From Sphingomonas sp. SORGH_AS_0879 (GTDB lineage: Bacteria; Pseudomonadota; Alphaproteobacteria; Sphingomonadales; Sphingomonadaceae), in contig NZ_JAUTBJ010000002.1 in NCBI RefSeq assembly GCF_030819175.1, positions 1,126,001-1,190,000 of the forward strand: a stretch of 64,000 nt of DNA, in the 5' to 3' direction. The position numbers and the translations under genes are program-made. Each line of letters begins with the position of its first letter. The stretch's first letter is position 1. The notes beneath the pieces are model-generated. The model was not told the DNA's origin and made no database searches. It saw nothing but the letters and a program-made list of their open reading frames with translations. Below, in pieces: positions 25,090 to 34,934 of the stretch.

Positions 25090-27305
25090 AGAAGCTTGTC
25101 CTCGGTTCGGTTCTGGCGCTGGCATTGACCGCAGGGGCGCATGGACAGACCACGCTCAATGTGCGTGATGCCGATATCCGCGCCTTCATCGCCGATGCCG
25201 CCAAGGTCACGGGGCGGACCTTCATCATCGACAGCCGGGTCAACGGCAAGGTGACGGTCGTGACCGACCGGCCGCTGTCCAGGTCCGAATATTTCGAGAT
25301 TTTCCTGTCGACCCTGCGCTCCAACGGGCTGGTCGCGGTGCCGACTTCGGGTGGGGCGTTCCGGGTGCAGCCGGTGGATAACGCCGCGTCGCAGCCCAGC
25401 CGGATCGGGTCGGCGGGCGCGAACCGCAACGCCTATGTCACCGAGATCATCCGCCTGCGCGCGATCGACGCCAACAGCGCGCTGGAGACGGTGCGCCCGC
25501 TGGTCAGCGCGCAAGGATCGGTGACGGCCAATCGCGCGGGCAACAGCCTGGTCGTGGTGGACTTCGCCGACAATATCCGCCGCATCCGCGAGGTCGTCCG
25601 GCGGATCGACGCCGACAATGCCTCGACCCGCGTCATCGCGCTGAGGAATGCGGGCGCGCGCGAGATCGCGACCGCGCTCCAGACGCTGGCGGGCGGCGGT
25701 GGCGGTGCACAGGGCGGCCCGGCGCAAGGGGCGACCGGCGTGTCGGTGGTCGCGATCGACAGCTCCAACTCGGTCGCGTTGCGCGGCGATCCGTCGAGCG
25801 TGGCGCGCTTCGCCCAGATCGCGCTCGACCTGGACAACAAGGCCAAGAGCGGCACCGAAATCCGCGTCGTCTTCCTGCAAAATGCCGATGCGGAGCAGCT
25901 TCTGCCGGTGCTCCAGCAACTGGTCGGCCAGACACCCGATCCGGTGCAGGAAACCACCCTGTCGCGCGGCAGCTTCACCCAGACCAATAGCCAGGCGGGG
26001 TCGGCGGCGGGCACCTCGATCGCGCAGCGTATCCAGCCGGTGGCGCAACCCCAGGCCGCGAGCGCCCCCGGTGCGGGTGGCCAGAACGGCCAGCAACCCG
26101 CGATCAGCACGCAAGGGGGACGCACGGCGGCGGTCGTCACCCGCTTCACCGGCGCGAACGCCATCGTCATTGCGGGGCCCGCCGATATCCAGCGCCAGAT
26201 CGGCGAGGTGATCCGCCAACTCGACGTGCGCCGCGAACAGGTGCTGATCGAGGCGATCGTCGCCGAGGTTTCGGACCAGACCGCGCGGCGGCTGGGCGCG
26301 CAGTTCCTGCTCGGCAGCCTTTCGGGCGGGGCGTTCGCGGCCTCGACCTATGGCAATACCGCGCCGAACATCCTCCAGATCGCGGGGGCGGTGGGGGCGC
26401 AGACCCTCGGCGGCACCAAGACGATCGTCACCGCCCCCGACGGCACGCGGACCGAAACCAATGTCCCCAACCCGGCCTTCAGCCAACTGACCCAGTCGGC
26501 GGTCCAGTCGATCCTGGGGACGACCGGCGGCTTTGCAGGCTGGGGCGGGCAGGTCGGCGACACGGTGTTCGGCGCGATCATCAACGCGGTGAAGAGCGAC
26601 ACCACATCGAACCTGCTGCAAGTCCCGCACATCATCACGCTGGACAATCAACAGGCGCACAGCCTGGTGGGTCAGGAAATTCCGGTGACGACCGGACAGG
26701 CGCTGTCGAACAATTTCGACAATGCCTTCCGCACCGTGCAGCGCCAGAATGTCGGCATTCAGTTGGACGTGAAGCCGCAGGTCAATGCGGGCGGTTCGCT
26801 GAAACTCTATGTCCGGCTGGAGGTGAGTTCGATCGCCGGGCCGGTGTCGAGCAACAACAGCGAGTTGATCCTGAACAAGCGCGCGTTCGAGAATGTCTTC
26901 ACCCCCGATGACGGCCAGATCACGGTCATCGGCGGCCTGCTGGACGACAACGAACGCCGCACCATCGAGAAGATTCCGCTGCTCGGCGATATTCCCGGCC
27001 TGGGCGCGCTGTTCCGGTCCAAGGCGCGCAGCCGGTCGAAGACCAACCTGATGGTCTTCATCCGCCCGACCATCTTGCGCACGCCCGAGGACAGCCGCCG
27101 CGTCACCGAACAGCGTTACGGCTATCTCCGCCAGCTTCAAGGCTATGCCCAGCCGGGCGTCGAGCCCTCGATCGACGAACTGGTCCGCGATTACATGAAC
27201 GCCGCGCCGCCCATCCCGCACGCGCCCATGCCCGGCAATATCGAGGACCCGCGCATCGCGGTCCCCGTCGCCAAGCCGGTCGAGCCGATCAAGCGCCGTG
27301 ACTGA
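25086..27305 (+). CDS. gspD: Type II secretion secretin GspD
   Basis: 739 residues forming the outer-membrane gate. Signal peptide (KKLVLGSVLALALTAGAHGQ), N0 domain (LNVRDADIRAFIADAAKVTGRTFIID), three N/KH-type repeats (EIIRLRAIDANSALETVRP, RVIALRNAGAREIATALQT, RVVFLQNADAEQLLPVLQQL) with Gly/Ala/Gln-rich linkers, then the secretin core (VPHIITLDNQQAHSLVGQEIPV, FENVFTPDDGQITVIGGLL, PLLGDIPGLGALFRSK) and a C-terminal S-domain-like tail (YGYLRQLQGYAQP). No lipobox, so pilotin dependence is uncertain. It starts inside the gspC stop and ends 8 nt into gspE. Confidence 0.96.
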   Translation: MKKLVLGSVLALALTAGAHGQTTLNVRDADIRAFIADAAKVTGRTFIIDSRVNGKVTVVTDRPLSRSEYFEIFLSTLRSNGLVAVPTSGGAFRVQPVDNAASQPSRIGSAGANRNAYVTEIIRLRAIDANSALETVRPLVSAQGSVTANRAGNSLVVVDFADNIRRIREVVRRIDADNASTRVIALRNAGAREIATALQTLAGGGGGAQGGPAQGATGVSVVAIDSSNSVALRGDPSSVARFAQIALDLDNKAKSGTEIRVVFLQNADAEQLLPVLQQLVGQTPDPVQETTLSRGSFTQTNSQAGSAAGTSIAQRIQPVAQPQAASAPGAGGQNGQQPAISTQGGRTAAVVTRFTGANAIVIAGPADIQRQIGEVIRQLDVRREQVLIEAIVAEVSDQTARRLGAQFLLGSLSGGAFAASTYGNTAPNILQIAGAVGAQTLGGTKTIVTAPDGTRTETNVPNPAFSQLTQSAVQSILGTTGGFAGWGGQVGDTVFGAIINAVKSDTTSNLLQVPHIITLDNQQAHSLVGQEIPVTTGQALSNNFDNAFRTVQRQNVGIQLDVKPQVNAGGSLKLYVRLEVSSIAGPVSSNNSELILNKRAFENVFTPDDGQITVIGGLLDDNERRTIEKIPLLGDIPGLGALFRSKARSRSKTNLMVFIRPTILRTPEDSRRVTEQRYGYLRQLQGYAQPGVEPSIDELVRDYMNAAPPIPHAPMPGNIEDPRIAVPVAKPVEPIKRRD

Positions 27306-28902
27306 CGACCCGCAACCCATTCCTACCGGCGATACCGTCCCCTTGCCGCTGGGCACGCCCGTCCCGCAGGCGGGAGGGGATGGGGGAGGGCCACCCGCTC
27401 TCCCGCTCCCCACGCCCGACGAAGCGCTGGAACTGGTCGCCCCGCTGACCATCCCCTACGCCTTCGCCCGCAAGTTCGGCACGGTCGTCCACACCGCCGA
27501 TCCGCTGACCATCGCCCTGCGCGAAGGCGCGGACCCGCGCGCGCTGATCGAGCTGCGCCGCCATATCGGCCGCCCCTTCGCCATCGCCCTTGTCGAGGCG
27601 CCCGCTTTCGACCGGTTGCTCTCCGACGCCTATGCGATGGACGGACAGGCGACTGCGATCGCGGCGGTGGGCATGGGCGACGAGTTGGACATGCTCGCCG
27701 ACGGCATCCCGACCGCCGAGGACCTGCTCGACACCGCCGATGATGCGCCCGCCATTCGCCTGATCAACGGCATCATCGCCGACGCCGCGCGCAACGGCGT
27801 GTCGGACATCCATATCGAGCCTTATGAGACGGGCCTCGTCGTCAGGATGCGCATCGACGGCGTGCTGCGCGAGACCTTGCGCATGCCGCCGCATGTCGCG
27901 CCGGTGGTGGTCAGCCGTATCAAGGTCATGGCGCGGCTCGACATCGCCGAGCGGCGCGTGCCGCAGGACGGGCGCATGGCGCTGACGCTGGGCGGCAAGC
28001 TGCTCGACGTGCGTGTCTCGACCCTGCCCAGCCGCGCGGGGGAACGCGTGGTGCTGCGTATCCTCGATAAGGAGAATGCGGGCATCGACCTCGACGCGCT
28101 GGGCATGAACCCGGCGATGTACGCGCTGCTGCGCGAGGCGCTGAGCGAGCCCAATGGCATCATCCTGGTCACCGGGCCGACCGGCTCGGGCAAGACGACC
28201 AGCCTGTACGCCGCGCTGCGCCTGCTGAACGATGGCAGCCGCAATATCCTGACCGTCGAGGACCCGGTCGAATATGCGGTCGAGGGGGTGGGGCAGACCC
28301 AGGTGAATGCGAAGGTCGACCTGACCTTCGCGGCGGGCTTGCGCGCGATCCTGCGCCAGGACCCGGACGTGGTGATGGTCGGCGAAATCCGCGACCGCGA
28401 AACCGCCGAGATCGCGGTCCAGGCCTCGCTGACCGGGCACCTCGTGCTGTCGACGGTCCACACCAACGATGCGGTCGGCGCGATCACCCGGATGCGCGAC
28501 ATGAAGGTCGAGCCCTTCCTGCTCGCCTCGACGCTCCGCGCCGTGATCGCGCAGCGGCTGGTGCGGCGGCTGTGCCCGGCGTGCAAGCGGCCGGTAAAGG
28601 CGAAGCACACTGTCGCGCCGCTGCTCGGCATCGAGAACAAGGCGACGGTGTACGAAGCGGTCGGCTGTCCGCAGTGCAACGGCAGCGGCTATAAGGGGCG
28701 CACCGGGGTCTATGAGGCGGTCCGGGTCGACGACACGATCCGGCGGCTGATCAACGAAGGCGGTGACGAACAGGCGATTGCCGCGCACGCCTTTGCCCGG
28801 CAGCAGCCATTGGCGGCGGCGGCGCGGACGCTGGTGCTGGACGGCGTGACCACGGCGGAGGAAGCCATCCGCGTGTCCCGCCGCGATTCCGAGGCGGGGT
28901 GA
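27298..28902 (+). CDS. gspE: Type II secretion ATPase GspE
   Basis: 534-residue cytoplasmic hexameric ATPase that powers pseudopilus assembly. N-domain (LTIPYAFARKFGTVV), Walker A GPTGSGKTTSLYAAL (about 290), Asp box, Walker B and His box (ILRQDPDVVMVGEIRDRETAEIA ... STVHTNDA), and a zinc-binding tetracysteine (CPACKRP ... CPQCNGSG). The GTG start overlaps the gspD stop by 8 nt. Codons about 20-31 (PVPQAGGDGGGPP) are encoded by a palindromic family A repeat inserted in frame near the N-terminus; the residues lie before the folded domain. Confidence 0.96.
   Translation: MTDDPQPIPTGDTVPLPLGTPVPQAGGDGGGPPALPLPTPDEALELVAPLTIPYAFARKFGTVVHTADPLTIALREGADPRALIELRRHIGRPFAIALVEAPAFDRLLSDAYAMDGQATAIAAVGMGDELDMLADGIPTAEDLLDTADDAPAIRLINGIIADAARNGVSDIHIEPYETGLVVRMRIDGVLRETLRMPPHVAPVVVSRIKVMARLDIAERRVPQDGRMALTLGGKLLDVRVSTLPSRAGERVVLRILDKENAGIDLDALGMNPAMYALLREALSEPNGIILVTGPTGSGKTTSLYAALRLLNDGSRNILTVEDPVEYAVEGVGQTQVNAKVDLTFAAGLRAILRQDPDVVMVGEIRDRETAEIAVQASLTGHLVLSTVHTNDAVGAITRMRDMKVEPFLLASTLRAVIAQRLVRRLCPACKRPVKAKHTVAPLLGIENKATVYEAVGCPQCNGSGYKGRTGVYEAVRVDDTIRRLINEGGDEQAIAAHAFARQQPLAAAARTLVLDGVTTAEEAIRVSRRDSEAG
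27357..27392. repeat. Family A repeat inside the gspE reading frame
   Basis: cgtcccgcaggcgggagg plus the gatgggggaggg tail, matching the intergenic copies at 5.7 and 37.5 kb apart from one base in the left arm. It lies wholly within the coding sequence of gspE and keeps frame. Confidence 0.85.
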
Positions 28903-28932
28903 ACGTGGTCGCCGTCCTCCCTCTCTTCCGTA

Positions 28933-29247
28933 CCACCCCGGCGAAGGCCGGGGTCCCGTTGCGTTCACGCGAAGCCGCGAAGGCGCGAAGAGAAGATGTT
29001 TTTTTCGCGCGGAGGCGCGGAGAACGCGGAGGTGTCTGGCCCGCGGCAGCGAACAGCTTTTCCCATCAGCCGATGCATGAGCGCCGCTGGCGCGGCAGGC
29101 ACGCCCTCTCTGCGTCCTCCGCGCCTCCGCGCGAACATCATTCCATTCTTCTTCGCGTCTTCGCGTCTTCGCGTGAGATAAAATTTCAATCCCGCACTCC
29201 GCTTCTGCACCGCCACCGCAACTGGACCCCGGCCTTCGCCGGGGTGG
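28933..29247. repeat. Triple nested inverted repeat in the gspE-gspF gap
   Basis: Three concentric inverted pairs. The outer pair is a perfect 24-bp match containing ccccggcgaaggccgggg (family C) at 28933-28956 and 29224-29247. The middle pair is cacgcgaagccgcgaaggcg type (28964-28995) against its near complement (29147-29178). The inner pair is gcgcggaggcgcggag type (29004-29032) against 29104-29132. About 70 nt remain as loop. The whole 375-bp gap between gspE and gspF is filled by this structure, and no gene was found in it. Confidence 0.85.
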
Positions 29248-29277
29248 GCCCCTATTATGGGAAGGGGGGGCACTGAC

Positions 29278-30501
29278 ATGGCCGGGTTCGACTATGTCGC
29301 CATCGACACCAGGGGCGCGGAGAAGCGCGGCTTCATCCCCGCCGAGACCAGCGATGCCGCCCGCGCCGCGCTGGAGAAGCAGCGGCTCTATGTCGTCTCG
29401 GTCAAGCCGGGCAGCGGCGATACCGCCGAGCGGCGGCCGCTGTTCGGGCTCAAGCTCGGCCGCGCGCGCATGTCGGTCAAGCAGCTGACCCTGTTCACCC
29501 GCCAGCTCGCCACGCTCAACCGCGTCTCGCCGCTGGAGGAGTCCTTGCGCACCATCACCCGCCAGACCGAGCAGGAGCGGGTGCGCGCCATCGTCGCGAC
29601 GGTGCATCAGGGCGTGACCGAGGGCCGCCGTCTGGCCGACGCCATGGCGCGCGAGCCCAAGAGCTTCCCCCCTCTCTACCGCGCGATGGTCGCGGCGGGG
29701 GAGAGTTCGGGGACGCTGCCCACGATCCTCGAACGGCTGGCCGCGCTGCTAGAGCGGCAGGCGGAGATACGCGGCAAGCTGATCACCGCGCTGGCCTATC
29801 CGACGATCCTGGCGGTCGTCGCGCTGGGCGTCGTCACCGCGCTGATGATGTTCGTCGTGCCGCAGGTGGTCGAACAATTCGATACGGTGGGGCAGGAGCT
29901 GCCCTTCCTGACGCGGATGGTGATCGGGGTGTCGGACCTGCTGGTCGGCTGGTGGTGGCTGATGGCGGTCGTGGCGGTCGTGGCAGGCGTCGGCTTCTGG
30001 CGCGCGTTGAAAGTGCCGTCGATCCGGCTGTCCTTCGACACGTGGCTGCTCAAGCTGCCCTTGCTCGGGCGATTGTTGCGCGACCTGCATGCCGCGCGGA
30101 TGGCGCGGACGCTGGGGACGATGGTGGCCAGCCGGTTGCCGCTGCTCGAAGGGCTGACGCTGACGGCGGGCACGATCCACAACCGTCGCCTGCGCGTCGC
30201 CTCCGACGCGATCGTCGATTCGATCCGGGGCGGCGGCAGCCTGTCGGCGGCGATGCGGCGGGCGGGGGTGTTCCCGCCTTTGCTCACCTATCTGGTGGCC
30301 AGCGGCGAGGCGGCGGGGCGGCTCGACGAGATGCTGGAGCGCGCCGCCGACTATCTGGAGCGCGAGTTCGACCGCTTCACCGCCACCGCGCTCTCGCTGC
30401 TCGAACCGGCGATCATCGTCGTGATGGGCGGCGTGGTCGCCACCATCGTGCTATCCATCCTGCTGCCGATCCTCCAGCTCAACACGCTGGCCGGTCAATA
30501 A
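29278..30501 (+). CDS. gspF: Type II secretion inner-membrane platform protein GspF
   Basis: 407 residues. Cytoplasmic N-domain (FDYVAIDTRGAEKRGFIPAE), then two homologous GspF domains: LTLFTRQLATLNRVSPLEESL with AMVAAGESSGTLP, and ARMARTLGTMVASRLPLLEGL with YLVASGEAAGRLDEML. Three membrane helices (about 172-195, 220-242, 375-398). The ATG follows a GGGGGG ribosome binding site just beyond the nested repeat. The only gsp gene here whose start does not overlap or closely abut its predecessor. Confidence 0.95.
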   Translation: MAGFDYVAIDTRGAEKRGFIPAETSDAARAALEKQRLYVVSVKPGSGDTAERRPLFGLKLGRARMSVKQLTLFTRQLATLNRVSPLEESLRTITRQTEQERVRAIVATVHQGVTEGRRLADAMAREPKSFPPLYRAMVAAGESSGTLPTILERLAALLERQAEIRGKLITALAYPTILAVVALGVVTALMMFVVPQVVEQFDTVGQELPFLTRMVIGVSDLLVGWWWLMAVVAVVAGVGFWRALKVPSIRLSFDTWLLKLPLLGRLLRDLHAARMARTLGTMVASRLPLLEGLTLTAGTIHNRRLRVASDAIVDSIRGGGSLSAAMRRAGVFPPLLTYLVASGEAAGRLDEMLERAADYLEREFDRFTATALSLLEPAIIVVMGGVVATIVLSILLPILQLNTLAGQ

Positions 30502-30507
30502 GAGGAC

Positions 30508-30969
30508 ATGTTCATGCGTACCCAAAATCGCCGTCCGATCCGCCGCAAGCGCCCCGCCAACGGCTTTACGCTGGTCGAGTTGATGGTCGTGATCGTCATC
30601 ATCGGCCTGCTCGCCACCATCGTCGCGCTGAACGTGCTGCCCTCGGGCGACACCGCGCGGGTGCAGAAGGCCAAGGCCGATATTGCGCAGATCGAGGGCG
30701 GGCTGGAGATGTTCAAGCTCCAGAACCTGACCTTCCCGACGACGTCGCAGGGGCTTCAGGCGCTGGTGTCGATGCCCGCAGGGCTCGCCGATCCGTCGCG
30801 TTACCAGAAGGGCGGCTATCTGAAGAAGCTGCCCGACGATCCCTGGGGCCGTCCGTATCTTTATGCCTCGCCCGGCCAGCATGGCGAGGCGGATGTCTGG
30901 ACCTATGGCGCCGACGGCAAGGAAGGTGGCGAGGGGATCAACGCCGATATCGGCAACTGGGATAAGTGA
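30508..30969 (+). CDS. gspG: Major pseudopilin GspG
   Basis: 153 residues. Prepilin leader of 19 residues, cleavage before Phe20 in NG-FTLVELMVVIVIIGLLA, and Glu at mature position 5. The C-terminal domain has GLQALVSMP, GGYLKKLPDDPWGRPYLYASPG and the calcium-site-like ADVWTYGADGKEGGEG. Main subunit of the periplasmic pseudopilus. AGAGGAC ribosome binding site 6 nt after gspF. Needs a prepilin peptidase (GspO/PilD), which is not in this window. Confidence 0.97.
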   Translation: MFMRTQNRRPIRRKRPANGFTLVELMVVIVIIGLLATIVALNVLPSGDTARVQKAKADIAQIEGGLEMFKLQNLTFPTTSQGLQALVSMPAGLADPSRYQKGGYLKKLPDDPWGRPYLYASPGQHGEADVWTYGADGKEGGEGINADIGNWDK

Positions 30970-31592
30970 GCGCGCGGCTTCGCCTGGATGCCGGGGACGG
31001 CGGCGGGCGGGGCTCGTGTGGGGTATTCTCCCCACCCTCCGTTCGCACTGAGCGAAGTCGAAGTGCACGGGGTGACGTTTCCACGTGGCCTTCGACTTCG
31101 CTCAGGCTGAACGGAGGGTGGGAAAAGCGATTAGCCCGCCGTTCGCGGTCCGCCGAATACGGCTTTACCCTGGTCGAGCTGATGGTCGTCATCACCGTGA
31201 TCGGCCTGGCTTCCGCCATCGCGGTCTGGTCGCTGCCCGACCGGCGGGGCCGCGTGGCCGACGAAGCCCTGCGCTTCGCCGCCCGCGTCCGCGCCGCGCA
31301 TGACGTGGCGGTGGTGGGGGCGTCGCCGGTCAGCATCTGGGTGACGCGCGGTGGCTATGGCTTCGACCGGCGCTCGGACGGCGCGTGGAGTCCGATGACC
31401 GCGAAACCCTTGCGCGTCGCCCAATGGGAGGACGGCACCCAGGCGATGATCCCCGATGCCAGCGGGCGGGTGCGGATCACTTTCGACGTGACCGGGCTCG
31501 CCGACCGCCCGGTCGAACTCCGCCTGACCCGCGAGCGCGCCAGCAGCATCGTGCGGATCGGCGCGGACGGTACGGTGCGGGTCGATGGTTGA
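30966..31592 (+). CDS. gspH: Minor pseudopilin GspH with a repeat-encoded leader extension
   Basis: 208 residues. The pilin motif EYG-FTLVELMVVITVIGLASA begins only at residue 66, so the leader is about ten times longer than the usual 6-8 residues. GTG start overlaps the gspG stop (GTGA). Between it and the cleavage site there is no other in-frame ATG, GTG or TTG, so translation must pass through an inserted family B repeat (codons about 22-53). The mature domain has GspH features (AHDVAVVGASPVSIWVTRGGYGF). Whether such a long, basic leader is still processed is open. Confidence 0.85.
   Translation: MSARLRLDAGDGGGRGSCGVFSPPSVRTERSRSARGDVSTWPSTSLRLNGGWEKRLARRSRSAEYGFTLVELMVVITVIGLASAIAVWSLPDRRGRVADEALRFAARVRAAHDVAVVGASPVSIWVTRGGYGFDRRSDGAWSPMTAKPLRVAQWEDGTQAMIPDASGRVRITFDVTGLADRPVELRLTRERASSIVRIGADGTVRVDG
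31031..31122. repeat. Family B inverted repeat inside the gspH leader
   Basis: Arms cccaccctccgttcgcactg.. and ..caggctgaacggagggtggg with gcgaagtcgaag cores, about 21 nt apart. Same element as at 24.0, 43.9 and 57.5 kb, but here inside the translated gspH leader and in frame. Confidence 0.9.
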
Positions 31593-32106
31593 GGGAACCA
31601 GAATTCCTCCCCTGCAAGGGGAGGTGGCGCGGCGGAGCCGTGACGGAGGGGGCGTGCCTCATAGGGCGACCCTTGCGGGGATCCCCCTCCACCATCCTTC
31701 GGATGGTCCCCCTCCCCGTGCCGGGGAGGATGGCTTCACCCTGATCGAGATCATGGTGGCGCTGGCGGTGTTCAGCCTGGCGGCGATGGCCTTGGTCCGA
31801 CTGGAGAGCGCGACGATCCGGGGAGCGGCGATCCTGGACGAAACGGTGGTCGCGCAGATGGTCGCGCGCAATGTCGCCATCGCCGCCGTCACCGATCCGC
31901 AGGCTCCCGCGCTGGGGCGTATGTCCGGCACCGAGGTAAATGGCGGACGAAGCTGGAAATGGACCCGGATCGTCAGCGGCACGGGCGACGTGCGCGTCGT
32001 GCGGATCGACGTGGCCGTGGCGAATGCGGGGGGCCGCATCGCGGGCCGGATGACGATGGTCCGCCCGCCCATGCCCGCGCCGCCGGTCGGGGTTTCGGCG
32101 TCGTGA
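31585..32106 (+). CDS. gspI: Minor pseudopilin GspI with a repeat-encoded leader extension
   Basis: 173 residues. Cleavage site at residue 50 (EDG-FTLIEIMVALAVFSLAAMALV), with Glu5 conserved; mature part about 123 residues with the usual GspI NVAIAAVTDP and GRSWKWTRIVSGT. The ATG overlaps the gspH stop by 8 nt. Codons 7-48 are encoded by a repeat of the cctcccctgcaaggggagg type, normally intergenic. In-frame GTG codons inside the repeat, preceded by GGAG runs, could serve as secondary starts giving shorter leaders. Confidence 0.86.
   Translation: MVEGTRIPPLQGEVARRSRDGGGVPHRATLAGIPLHHPSDGPPPRAGEDGFTLIEIMVALAVFSLAAMALVRLESATIRGAAILDETVVAQMVARNVAIAAVTDPQAPALGRMSGTEVNGGRSWKWTRIVSGTGDVRVVRIDVAVANAGGRIAGRMTMVRPPMPAPPVGVSAS
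31603..31734. repeat. Composite repeat inside the gspI leader
   Basis: Begins cctcccctgcaaggggagg, contains ggatccccctccaccatcc and ends with the hairpin cctccccgtgccggggagg. Same architecture as the elements at 39.6, 40.5 and 41.7 kb, which are intergenic. Confidence 0.85.
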
Positions 32107-32870
32107 GATTGCGCGCGCTTACCTTTCTGTTCCCCGGCGAAGGCCGGGGTCCCGTTGCTGCCCGGCTAAAGGCGCGGGGCGGCGTTGGCCCCGATTTTCC
32201 GGGTTCGCCGCAACTGGGCCCCGGCCTCCGCCGGGGAACAGGGCAGAACGGCTTCACCCTGGTCGAGGTCATGGTGGCGCTGCTCATCTTTTCGATGCTC
32301 GCCGCCGCCGCCGTGGCGATCCTGTCGCTGAGCGTCCGGGCGCAGGCGGTGACGGGGCAGAAGCTGGACGCGATGGCGGCGGTCAGCCGGACGACCGCGA
32401 TCCTCTCCGCCGATCTGGCGCAGGCGGTCGATCGTCCGACCCGTGACGAAGGCCTCGTGCAGACCCCCGCCATGGTCGCAGGGGCCGACGCGATGCGCTT
32501 CGTCCGGGCGGGCTGGAGCAATCTCGACGGGGCGCAGCGGCCATCGTTGCAGAAGCTCGCCTATCGCCTGAACGGCGACGTGCTGGAGCGGGTGGCATGG
32601 CCGCTGCTCGACGGGGCGGCCCCGATGGAGCCCGCCGCGCTGATGGACCATGTCCGCGAACTGCACCTGCGCTATCGCTTCAACGGCGCGTGGCTCGACC
32701 AGTGGCAGGGGGAGCCGGGCGTCGCGCTGCCCCAGGCCGCCGAGGTGACGATCGTGCGCGATGACGGCATGATCTTTCGCCAGTTATTTCTGGTCGGCAC
32801 CGGTTATGTCGCCGTGCCGCAAATCGGTCCGACGCCGACCCCTACGCCCACGCCGGCCCCCGGTGGCTAG
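32103..32870 (+). CDS. gspJ: Minor pseudopilin GspJ with a repeat-encoded leader extension
   Basis: 255 residues. Cleavage site at residue 50 (QNG-FTLVEVMVALLIFSMLAAAA). Mature part shows GspJ features (MRFVRAGWSN, LQKLAYRL, RYRFNGAWLDQW). GTG start overlaps the gspI stop (GTGA). The leader contains two facing copies of the ccccggcgaaggccgggg repeat, and there is no ATG or GTG between the start and the pilin motif (only a TTG at codon 3), so the repeat must be translated. A Pro/Thr tail ends the protein. Confidence 0.86.
   Translation: MRLRALTFLFPGEGRGPVAARLKARGGVGPDFPGSPQLGPGLRRGTGQNGFTLVEVMVALLIFSMLAAAAVAILSLSVRAQAVTGQKLDAMAAVSRTTAILSADLAQAVDRPTRDEGLVQTPAMVAGADAMRFVRAGWSNLDGAQRPSLQKLAYRLNGDVLERVAWPLLDGAAPMEPAALMDHVRELHLRYRFNGAWLDQWQGEPGVALPQAAEVTIVRDDGMIFRQLFLVGTGYVAVPQIGPTPTPTPTPAPGG
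32129..32242. repeat. Family C inverted repeats inside the gspJ leader
   Basis: ttccccggcgaaggccgggg at the left and ccccggcctccgccggggaa at the right, about 68 nt apart, in opposite orientation. Same element as the outer arms of the gspE-gspF structure. Confidence 0.85.
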
Positions 32871-33852
32871 GCCCCGATCCCGTCCCGGCGAGCGGGGCGC
32901 CGCGCTGCTCACCGTGCTGATCCTCGTCGCGGTGATCGCCGTGCTGGCGGCGACCGCGCTGGAAAAGCTGCGCCTGTCGACCCGGCTGGGCGGCAATGCG
33001 GTGGCGATCGAGCAGGCACGCGGCTTCGCTTATGCGGCGGAGGCACTGGCGATCATCCGTATCGGCGACCTGCTGGAACGGTCGCAGGGCAAGGTCTCGC
33101 TGCTCGGCGGGTGGAGCGATCGGCCCTTCGCGCTGCCGCTCGGCGATATGGCGGGGGGCGGGACGGCGGTGGCGCGCGTCACCGATGGCGGCAATTGCTT
33201 CAACCTCAACGGCCTGGCCCAGCCGATACTCGGCCAGCCCGGCGTCTATGCCGCGAACGGGGTGGAAATCGCGCATTTCGCCAAGCTGATGCGGCTGATC
33301 GGCATTCCGGGTCAGGTGGCGGAGCAGGTGGCGACGGGCACCGCCGACTGGATCGACAGCGATCCCAATCCGCAAGGCGGCGGTGCGGAGGATGCGCTCT
33401 ATCTCGCCCGCGATCCGCCCTATCGGACCGGCGGCACGATGATGGCGGATGTCAGCGAGATGCGGATGGTGAACGGCGTCACCCCGGATATCTATGCGAC
33501 CCTGCGCCCCTGGATCTGCACGCTGCCCGAAGCGAAGCCGACCAGTGTCAACATCAACACCCTGGCCCCCGAACAGGCGCCCCTGGTCGCGATGGCGCAG
33601 GTCGATATGATTTCGCCCTCGGCCATCACCCAGGCCCTTTTGCGCCGCCCGCCGCAGGGCTATGCCGACGCCGGTGGCTTTTGGGCGCAGATTCCGGGGG
33701 CGAGCGGGGCGGGGGGCGTGGCGACGACCAGTCGCTGGTTCAACCTGCGCATCGCGGTGACCTTGGGCAGTGTGCGGGTGGACGAGCGCGCGCTGGTCGA
33801 TGCGTCGCGTCAGCCGCCGCGACTGGTGGCGCGGATTTGGGGGGAAGAGTGA
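32863..33852 (+). CDS. gspK: Minor pseudopilin GspK
   Basis: 329 residues, the largest pseudopilin, thought to cap the pseudopilus tip. Short normal leader: cleavage after ERG, mature AALLTVLILVAVIAVLAAT, lacking Glu5 as typical of GspK. Family blocks NLNGLAQP, DWIDSDPNPQGGGAED, SVNINTLAPE and GFWAQI. GTG start overlaps the gspJ stop by 8 nt; longer frames upstream are antisense-like. Unlike gspH, gspI and gspJ it has no repeat in its leader. Confidence 0.93.
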   Translation: MARPRSRPGERGAALLTVLILVAVIAVLAATALEKLRLSTRLGGNAVAIEQARGFAYAAEALAIIRIGDLLERSQGKVSLLGGWSDRPFALPLGDMAGGGTAVARVTDGGNCFNLNGLAQPILGQPGVYAANGVEIAHFAKLMRLIGIPGQVAEQVATGTADWIDSDPNPQGGGAEDALYLARDPPYRTGGTMMADVSEMRMVNGVTPDIYATLRPWICTLPEAKPTSVNINTLAPEQAPLVAMAQVDMISPSAITQALLRRPPQGYADAGGFWAQIPGASGAGGVATTSRWFNLRIAVTLGSVRVDERALVDASRQPPRLVARIWGEE

Positions 33853-34934
33853 TGAGTGCGACCAACCTCCTGTTCCTGCCGCCGGGCGAGGGCGGCGATT
33901 ATCGCTGGATGCGGATCGAGGATGCGCGCGTCGCGGCTGCGGGCGAGGGGCTGCCGCAAGGGGACGGCGACGTCATCGCGGTCGCGCCCGCCGATGCGGT
34001 GTCGCTGCATTGGGCCGAAATCCCCGCCCGCTCGACCGCGCAGGCCGCCGCCGCCGCGCGGCTGCTCGCCGCCGAGGTGAGTGCCGCCCCGATGGACGAA
34101 CTCCATGTCGCGGTCGGTGCGGAGGAAGCGGGCGCACGCGCGATCGGGATCGTCAATCGCGGCGCGATGGCGGGATGGCTCAGCCTGTTGGCGGGCAAGG
34201 GGATCGATCCGGTGGCGGTCGTCCCCGCCCCGCTGCTGCTGCCGCGCCCGGACGCAGGCTATGTGCGCGGCGATCTGGCCGGGCAGGGCGTGGTGCGCGG
34301 GCGCAGTTCGGGTTTTGCCGACGAACCCGGCCTGATCGAGATCGTGATCGGCGAGGAAGCGCTCGCCGATCTGGATGCCGACGGCATCGAAACCGCACTC
34401 GGCGCGGCGGTGGCGGCTCCGGCGCTCGACCTGCGGCAGGGGCTGTTCGCGCGGCGGCGCAGCTTCGCGATCGACTGGCGGCTGGTGCGGCGGCTCGGCT
34501 GGCTGGGTGTGGCGATCGTCGCGGTGACGCTGGCGATCGATCTGGTGCGCTGGACCAGATACAGCTTTGCCGCCGACGCGACCGAGGCGAAGATCGAGCA
34601 GGTCGCGCGCACCGCCCTGCCGCGTGGCGAGACCCTGGTCGATGCGGACCGGCAGCTTACCGAGCGGCTGGCGGCGATACGCGGGCCGGGTCAGGGGTTC
34701 AGCCGGACGGCGGCGGCGGTGTTCTCGGCGGTGCGCAGCGTGCCGGGCTCGGAGTTGACCGCGATGGATTTCCAGCCGAACGGCGACATCCGCCTGGGCG
34801 TGGCGGTGGATCGCGAGGCGCTCGCCACCGATCTGAAGCGGGCGATCGAAACCCAAGGCTTCACCGTCCAGCCCAGCACCTTCGTCGCGGCGAATGGCCG
34901 GATCACGGGAGAATTCATGGTGCGCGCACGATGA
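33852..34934 (+). CDS. gspL: Type II secretion protein GspL
   Basis: 360 residues. Cytoplasmic actin-like domain that binds GspE (SLHWAEIPARSTAQAAAAARLLAAEV), one membrane helix (about residues 213-233, LGWLGVAIVAVTLAIDLVRW) and a periplasmic ferredoxin-like domain (GSELTAMDFQPNGDIRLGVAV). The ATG shares one base with the gspK stop (TGATG). The cytoplasmic domain is shorter than in enterobacteria, as usual for Alphaproteobacteria. Confidence 0.9.
   Translation: MSATNLLFLPPGEGGDYRWMRIEDARVAAAGEGLPQGDGDVIAVAPADAVSLHWAEIPARSTAQAAAAARLLAAEVSAAPMDELHVAVGAEEAGARAIGIVNRGAMAGWLSLLAGKGIDPVAVVPAPLLLPRPDAGYVRGDLAGQGVVRGRSSGFADEPGLIEIVIGEEALADLDADGIETALGAAVAAPALDLRQGLFARRRSFAIDWRLVRRLGWLGVAIVAVTLAIDLVRWTRYSFAADATEAKIEQVARTALPRGETLVDADRQLTERLAAIRGPGQGFSRTAAAVFSAVRSVPGSELTAMDFQPNGDIRLGVAVDREALATDLKRAIETQGFTVQPSTFVAANGRITGEFMVRAR

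Follow-up and report, generated by a model that had tools for sequence, protein, structure and literature searches.

Dispersed palindromic repeats probably lengthen the leaders of three neighbouring minor pseudopilins in the type II secretion operon of Sphingomonas

Among the described systems, the Rickettsia palindromic elements (RPEs) are presented in the available passages of PMC10969869 as dispersed palindromes of about 150 bp standing in frame within genes. In Sphingomonas sp. SORGH_AS_0879 (NZ_JAUTBJ010000002.1, positions 1,126,001-1,190,000, a 64,000-nt stretch hereafter called the window and given its own numbering), dispersed palindromes are likewise found in frame within genes, namely in the prepilin leaders of gspH, gspI and gspJ, three consecutive minor pseudopilin genes of a type II secretion system (T2SS). 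While RPEs, as characterised in those passages, occur in unrelated genes with a conserved peptide, three neighbouring leaders and several repeat families are involved here, and the gspH repeat is met in two frames as well as in two arrangements; compared by description, the window repeats would work like RPEs without all their defining features. In the extracts at hand from Delihas (2007; PMC2759123), the ERIC and RU repeats are also intergenic repeats that carry open reading frames (ORFs) and are able to fuse to genes, such fusions being scattered, in contrast with the recurrent target met here and its phase kept over many lineages. The CIR repeats of Caulobacter, again intergenic repeats of an alphaproteobacterium, are described in the same parts of PMC10969869 as strictly intergenic and CcrM-associated, whereas the present ones, by comparison of descriptions, lie inside genes and lack GANTC.

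Regarding the leaders themselves, the consulted sections of the literature describe the class III leader as hydrophilic, cytoplasmic, of variable length and removed by prepilin peptidase (PMC10191384, PMC4471445), with a range of 6-26 residues (PMC4471445), a leader of 18 residues being already called much longer than canonical (PMC4832360). The long prepilin leaders of type IVb pilins and of Streptococcus sanguinis PilE1/E2 are similarly cytoplasmic and variable in length, as far as the same extracts go (PMC4471445, PMC10191384, PMC4832360), but with 66, 50 and 50 residues the leaders of gspH, gspI and gspJ in the window fall outside the range given there, and in one congener (L056) the gspJ leader reaches up to 180 residues. 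Among the open-licence papers listed by the literature searches, no earlier report of repeat-lengthened prepilin leaders in Sphingomonas was found. On the grounds of sequence we are fairly confident that these are ordinary T2SS minor pseudopilins with repeat-lengthened leaders, in which repeats persist if translation remains continuous and in which the cleaved leaders tolerate the inserts.

In the window, gspH, gspI and gspJ share their first 4, 8 and 4 nt, respectively, with the end of the preceding gene, and the leaders read from these starts (lengths being counted to the cleavage glycine) run in frame and without a stop through repeats of three families, i.e. B in gspH, an A-like composite in gspI and C in gspJ. 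This arrangement, first reported in the initial annotation, is confirmed here, as are its statements that gspH has no ATG, GTG or TTG in frame between start and motif, that the sole other in-frame start in the gspJ leader is a TTG at codon 3, and that neither gspG nor gspK carries a repeat; gspI contains further in-frame GTGs giving leader lengths of 37 and 27. Searches of the own genome returned 513 candidate matches for the whole region (most of those listed belonging to family A), 165 for B and 101 for C, the best 40 candidates being scored per search. The predicted RNA folds of the B, A-like and C blocks are better than all 200 shuffles, with z-scores of -10.6, -5.3 and -7.1, respectively. 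No GANTC, the recognition site of CcrM, is present within the four repeat blocks of the window. Mobilisation by a RAYT, as for REP/REPIN elements, was considered and rejected, the genome having no match to PF01797 (RAYT Y1 transposase) in a search whose control matched in 5 of 14 genomes.

By genome search, gspG was matched in 180 of 295 congeneric genomes, and 106 congeneric operons were read, comprising the window's own, 25 from a first list of relatives and 80 more, the latter for the most part the best-ranking entries by similarity, with some near-duplicates and contig ends skipped, which makes the sample a non-random one. Distances were measured from the preceding stop to the cleavage motif, and changes were counted on a quick FastTree tree of the operon's own mature proteins, so that the numbers of length and phase changes are minima. 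Across these operons, frame, start and openness are conserved while length and repeat content change. For gspJ, distances extend from 8 to 533 nt with 46 distinct lengths, all in a single phase (106/106), which on the tree amounts to at least 69 changes of length with none of phase; the corresponding figures are at least 64 and 3 for gspI, at least 79 and 17 for gspH and, in the gap between gspF and gspG taken as comparison, at least 53 and 24.

Distances of at least 60 nt are found in 58 (H), 29 (I) and 42 (J) of the 106 operons, and stretches of this length are open in the gene frame in 54/58, 29/29 and 42/42 cases, respectively, when same-frame shuffles expect 33.6, 16.9 and 25.0; these junctions are open all the way back to a start near the stop in 50/58, 29/29 and 42/42. 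Considering the inserts of at least 80 nt, the coding frame of gspJ is open in all 40, frames +1 and +2 in 20 and 15; in gspH (n=47), frames +1 and +2 are open in 11 and 15, and in gspI the three frames are open in 27, 24 and 12 of the 27 inserts. Because in gspI the +1 frame is free of stops in nearly as many inserts as the coding frame, openness alone says little for this gene and it is the phase that carries the argument. A leader of at least 27 residues is unavoidable by any nearer ATG, GTG or TTG in 23 (H), 16 (I) and 19 (J) of the 106 operons; at the 533-nt gspJ junction (L056), the nearest possible start still leaves 70 residues. No 19-residue window with a mean hydropathy of at least 1.2 was detected in any of the 114 long leaders, a result that fits the model but is no test of it, because other frames of the same DNA are rarely hydrophobic either. 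Selection for positive charge was rejected as a firm rule, 12 of these 114 leaders having a net charge of 0 or below.

Fifteen species, including the one of the window, group together as a clade on the tree; among named gspJ records, the nearest are those of S. paucimobilis, S. sanguinis, S. yabuuchiae, S. parapaucimobilis and S. zeae. In all 15, the GTG of gspH, the ATG of gspI and the GTG of gspJ overlap the preceding stop, and none of the 45 H, I and J junctions has a stop in the gene frame between the overlapping start and the motif, the distances taking 10, 4 and 10 different values, respectively. At least one B arm is present in gspH of 14/15 members (exception L104), and long leaders are found in 14/15 for gspI (exception L101) and 14/15 for gspJ (exception L108). 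The initial annotation viewed the three repeats as independent hits in this genome, which cannot be retained since the inserts are common to the clade and thus are not three fresh hits; the recurrence is real but lies between lineages. Its proposed comparison of relatives for presence or absence of the repeats gave the same layout across the 15 species on the one hand and, on the other, a relative (L112) whose gspG is 92.5% identical in a local alignment (89% in the genome search), yet whose distances at H, I and J are short (25, 7 and 29 nt). When both B arms are present in gspH, their order is forward-reverse in 4 of 11 members (L074, L099, L103, L039) and reverse-forward in 7 (L100, L102, L105, L107, L108, L109, L110); besides, the arms stand in one codon phase in 12 of 14 members and in another in 2 (L101, L108). 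The B repeat was therefore replaced or rearranged while the gspH frame was held, and no single peptide has been kept. With 45/45 junctions open in the clade and the gspJ phase constant in 106 genomes, the repeats in gspH, gspI and gspJ of the window are very probably translated, as the initial annotation supposed, judging from the conservation of the frame. In one member (L102), the deposited GspJ (P0005, 236 aa) is annotated from an ATG that lies 20 codons into the conserved overlapping frame, and automatic start calls for GspJ-type genes look inconsistent.

As for what the inserts consist of, a palindrome test comparing the best inverted repeat of an insert with the best of ten shuffles was positive for 29/47 (H), 18/27 (I) and 27/40 (J) of the inserts of at least 80 nt, and dispersed repeats of the respective genome were confirmed inside leaders of three other species (G061, G089 and, with two families, G017). 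A second mode of growth consists of tandem copies of an 11-residue unit (RRSAEHGFTPV type), each with its own copy of the motif for cleavage; two or more such units in tandem occur in 29 leaders of 23/106 genomes (including L162, L136, L055 and L171), and the acidic residue at +5 is missing in 41/46 of the extra copies. In one such genome (G169), the tandem part matches, besides itself, only the gspI and gspJ leaders among the best 40 of 97 candidates. Its gspH and gspJ tandem units are 90% identical, which suggests an exchange of units between the two genes. The 592-nt gap between gspG and gspH in the same genome (L162:2954-3545) contains another dispersed repeat of more than 130 nt, with a stop in the gspH frame and 39 other places among the scored candidates. 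In a public GspJ (P0039), the leader appears to pass through the tandem units in a different frame, giving VPPNTAS repeats, before returning in frame; if right, this alternative-frame reading, made from the peptide alone, would mean that there is no constraint at the peptide level.

Outside the genus, 49 genomes of the family matched, 40 were fetched and 31 had all three genes by motif scan; among these 31, distances of at least 60 nt are found in 12 (H), 8 (I) and 9 (J), gspJ is in its usual phase in 29, and the peptides of the long leaders resemble, by eye, both kinds of insert. Public GspJ proteins, as deposited, have leaders of at least 27 residues in 37 of 120 among the matches listed (674 met the cut-off). 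Further down the operon, the gspJ-gspK junction reaches at least 100 nt in 1/105 operons, and none of the 103 gspK-gspL junctions, which overlap with no leader to spare, reaches 60 nt.

Upstream, the gap between gspE and gspF of the window (28903-29277), which the initial annotation had missed, is also repeat-filled and open, with C arms at 28933-28963 and 29217-29247 and inner inverted repeats. In the clade, this gap forms a single ORF ending with a TGA 1 nt before the gspF ATG in 14/14 measured members (L111 being left out), starting with an overlapping GTGA or ATGA in 13/14 (in L105, with a GTG 5 nt after the stop). The spacers are 324-411 nt long (108-137 codons), with 11 different values all divisible by 3, and the +0 frame is open in 14/14 when +1 and +2 are open in 0/14. 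In the genus, gaps of at least 80 nt are present in 65/104 operons, which speaks against the suggestion that prepilin leaders are the only tolerated target. Of these 65, 50 contain a bridging ORF, with an overlapping start and an end at most 12 nt from the gspF start (20.0 expected from shuffles), 8 run in frame into gspF (7.7 expected) and 7 do neither (37.3 expected); bridging within the clade concerns 13/14 against 1.2 expected. The 8 apparent in-frame N-terminal extensions of gspF measure about 50-114 residues from an overlapping GTGA (L051, L148, L149, L151, L152, L154, L132, L168). This gap had been considered as an untranslated control but was dropped once the open bridging ORF was found, the gspF-gspG gap being the better comparison. 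Genes gspC-D-E-F-G-H-I-J-K-L-M-N stand in the usual operon order in the window, each being recognised by Pfam, and the genome has two Peptidase_A24 matches above cut-off, i.e. prepilin-peptidase-type genes (Table 1 for the features around the repeats).

Table 1. Genes and repeats from gspE to gspL, in window coordinates.
Feature	Position	Strand	Remarks
gspE	27298..28902	+	Pfam T2SSE
Spacer ORF, repeat-filled, 125 codons	28899..29276	+	GTGA start overlaps gspE stop; TGA 1 nt before gspF ATG; no Pfam match
gspF	29278..30501	+	ATG 29278; Pfam T2SSF
gspG, major pseudopilin, ordinary 19-residue leader	30508..30969	+	Pfam T2SSG, N_methyl; stop 30967-30969
gspH	30966..31592	+	GTG 30966, 4-nt overlap with gspG stop; leader 30966-31163; motif G-FTLVE 31161-31178; Pfam N_methyl and GspH
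Family-B palindromic repeat, in frame in gspH leader	31031..31122	+	Dispersed; 42-nt arms, 86% complementary; RNA fold
gspI	31585..32106	+	ATG 31585, 8-nt overlap with gspH stop ending 31592; leader 31585-31734; motif G at 31732; Pfam N_methyl and T2SSI
Family-A composite (A-like) repeat, in frame in gspI leader	31605..31731	+	Dispersed; RNA fold
gspJ	32103..32870	+	GTG 32103, 4-nt overlap with gspI stop ending 32106; leader 32103-32252; motif G at 32250; Pfam N_methyl and T2SSJ
Family-C palindromic repeat, in frame in gspJ leader	32127..32241	+	Dispersed; 35-nt arms, 89% complementary; RNA fold
gspK, without repeat	32863..33852	+	Pfam
gspL, without repeat	33852..34934	+	1-nt overlap with gspK; Pfam

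The proposed mechanism can be outlined as follows. The leaders of gspH, gspI and gspJ would have been lengthened by dispersed palindromic repeats and, in other species, also by tandem 11-residue units. Since the genes are chained by overlapping stop and start codons, a repeat inserted at a junction ends up within the following gene, where it would persist only if no stop interrupts the frame between the overlapping start and the class III signal. As the leader is hydrophilic, cytoplasmic and removed by prepilin peptidase, almost any non-hydrophobic, stop-free peptide should be tolerated, and we infer that the long leaders are cut normally by this enzyme. Because gspF has no such leader, a repeat block in front of it would mostly be kept as a separate ORF bridging the gspE stop and the gspF start. 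Overlapping genes can be subject to translational coupling, and untranslated stretches to Rho-dependent polarity; the quantity under selection would then be continuous translation, by way of coupling and avoidance of polarity.

Several results weigh against this reading. Not every insert is palindromic, as the test counts above indicate. Many long leaders hold nearer in-frame starts, and the +1 frame of gspI is open nearly as often as its coding frame (24 vs. 27 of 27). The behaviour of gspH is looser, with 8 of its 58 long junctions lacking an open frame that reaches back to a start close to the stop and 17 phase changes in its at least 79 length changes. Outside the clade, bridging between gspE and gspF is moderate (37/51 against 17.8 expected, from genomes that are not independent), and the in-frame gspF extensions are not above chance (8 against 8.0 expected from shuffles). 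Away from gsp, a strict overlapping start bridges the repeat at only 4 of 21 junctions, a count made without shuffle control.

Of the rival explanations, the one that survives best is pure tolerance of the protein, in which any in-frame insert is accepted, continuity is irrelevant and the gspE-gspF ORF either arose by coincidence or encodes a small protein under selection. It suffices by itself for gspH, gspI and gspJ and sits well with the chance-level number of gspF extensions, but we regard it as unlikely considering that the clade spacer is open in 14/14 members with both other forward frames closed, a stop 1 nt before gspF and 11 lengths divisible by 3. The window's spacer ORF has no match in Pfam, but a small protein under selection may be conserved there. 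Tolerance explains the inserts in leaders and their lack between gspK and gspL but not the single open frame between gspE and gspF, which continuity does explain, and the combination of continuity and tolerance is preferred for this reason.

That the extension has a selected function, be it slower processing, a regulatory leader or messenger hairpins tuning the stoichiometry of GspH, GspI and GspJ, could be supposed from the occurrence of long leaders in many lineages and from the very stable hairpins predicted for all three window repeats; the initial annotation had itself proposed that the extension is useful. It appears improbable, since short leaders (less than 80 nt from the preceding stop) are found in more than half of the congeners at each gene (59 of 106 in H, 79 in I and 66 in J), the tree requiring no fewer than 23, 13 and 24 switches between long and short, respectively, and since neither leader length nor repeat content is conserved, the B repeat of gspH occurring in two frames and two arrangements.

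Finally, that the repeats are plain intergenic DNA, with non-canonical starts near the motif and an overlapping frame left open by accident in stop-poor, GC-rich repeats, is very improbable. In its favour, 38 of 40 other A/B copies sampled have no frame with a coding score on either flank together, and about 25 of 42 gspJ inserts are still open in the same frame after shuffling, but stop-poverty cannot keep the phase of gspJ through at least 69 length changes, nor is it in line with 45/45 open clade junctions, other frames often closed and overlapping starts conserved in 15/15.

With repeat-lengthened leaders under continuous translation as the preferred reading for gspH, gspI and gspJ, a broader rule for sphingomonad operons may be put forward, tentatively and at somewhat less than even odds: a palindrome would settle between co-transcribed genes only if it can be read as a bridging open frame, yielding either leaders or spacer proteins, with prepilin leaders as the main safe harbour. 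In the own genome, 41 distinct A/B copies gave 21 distinct co-directional junctions under a simple codon model; with a lenient start, 12/21 are bridged, and as these counts away from gsp lack a shuffle control, the bridging rule is a conjecture at genome scale. Among the 40 other copies sampled, the 2 through-frame candidates were both located in gaps between genes on inspection. At 14 distinct co-directional family-A junctions (L245-L259, L002), the upstream stop ends at most 15 nt from the repeat, a pattern that might reflect a preference of these repeats for bordering on stop codons.

Considering many lineages, several repeat families and a single operon with its frame conserved, this locus provides a natural experiment on the constraints bearing on insertions at overlapping genes. 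It implies that prepilin leaders can serve at several times their published length, which bears on models of prepilin peptidase and of signal recognition, and it is a warning that automatic gene starts for GspH, GspI and GspJ proteins are unreliable. It also suggests that translation continuity, and not only protein function, filters where repeats persist. If the general rule were true, so-called intergenic repeats would be a steady source of newly translated peptides.

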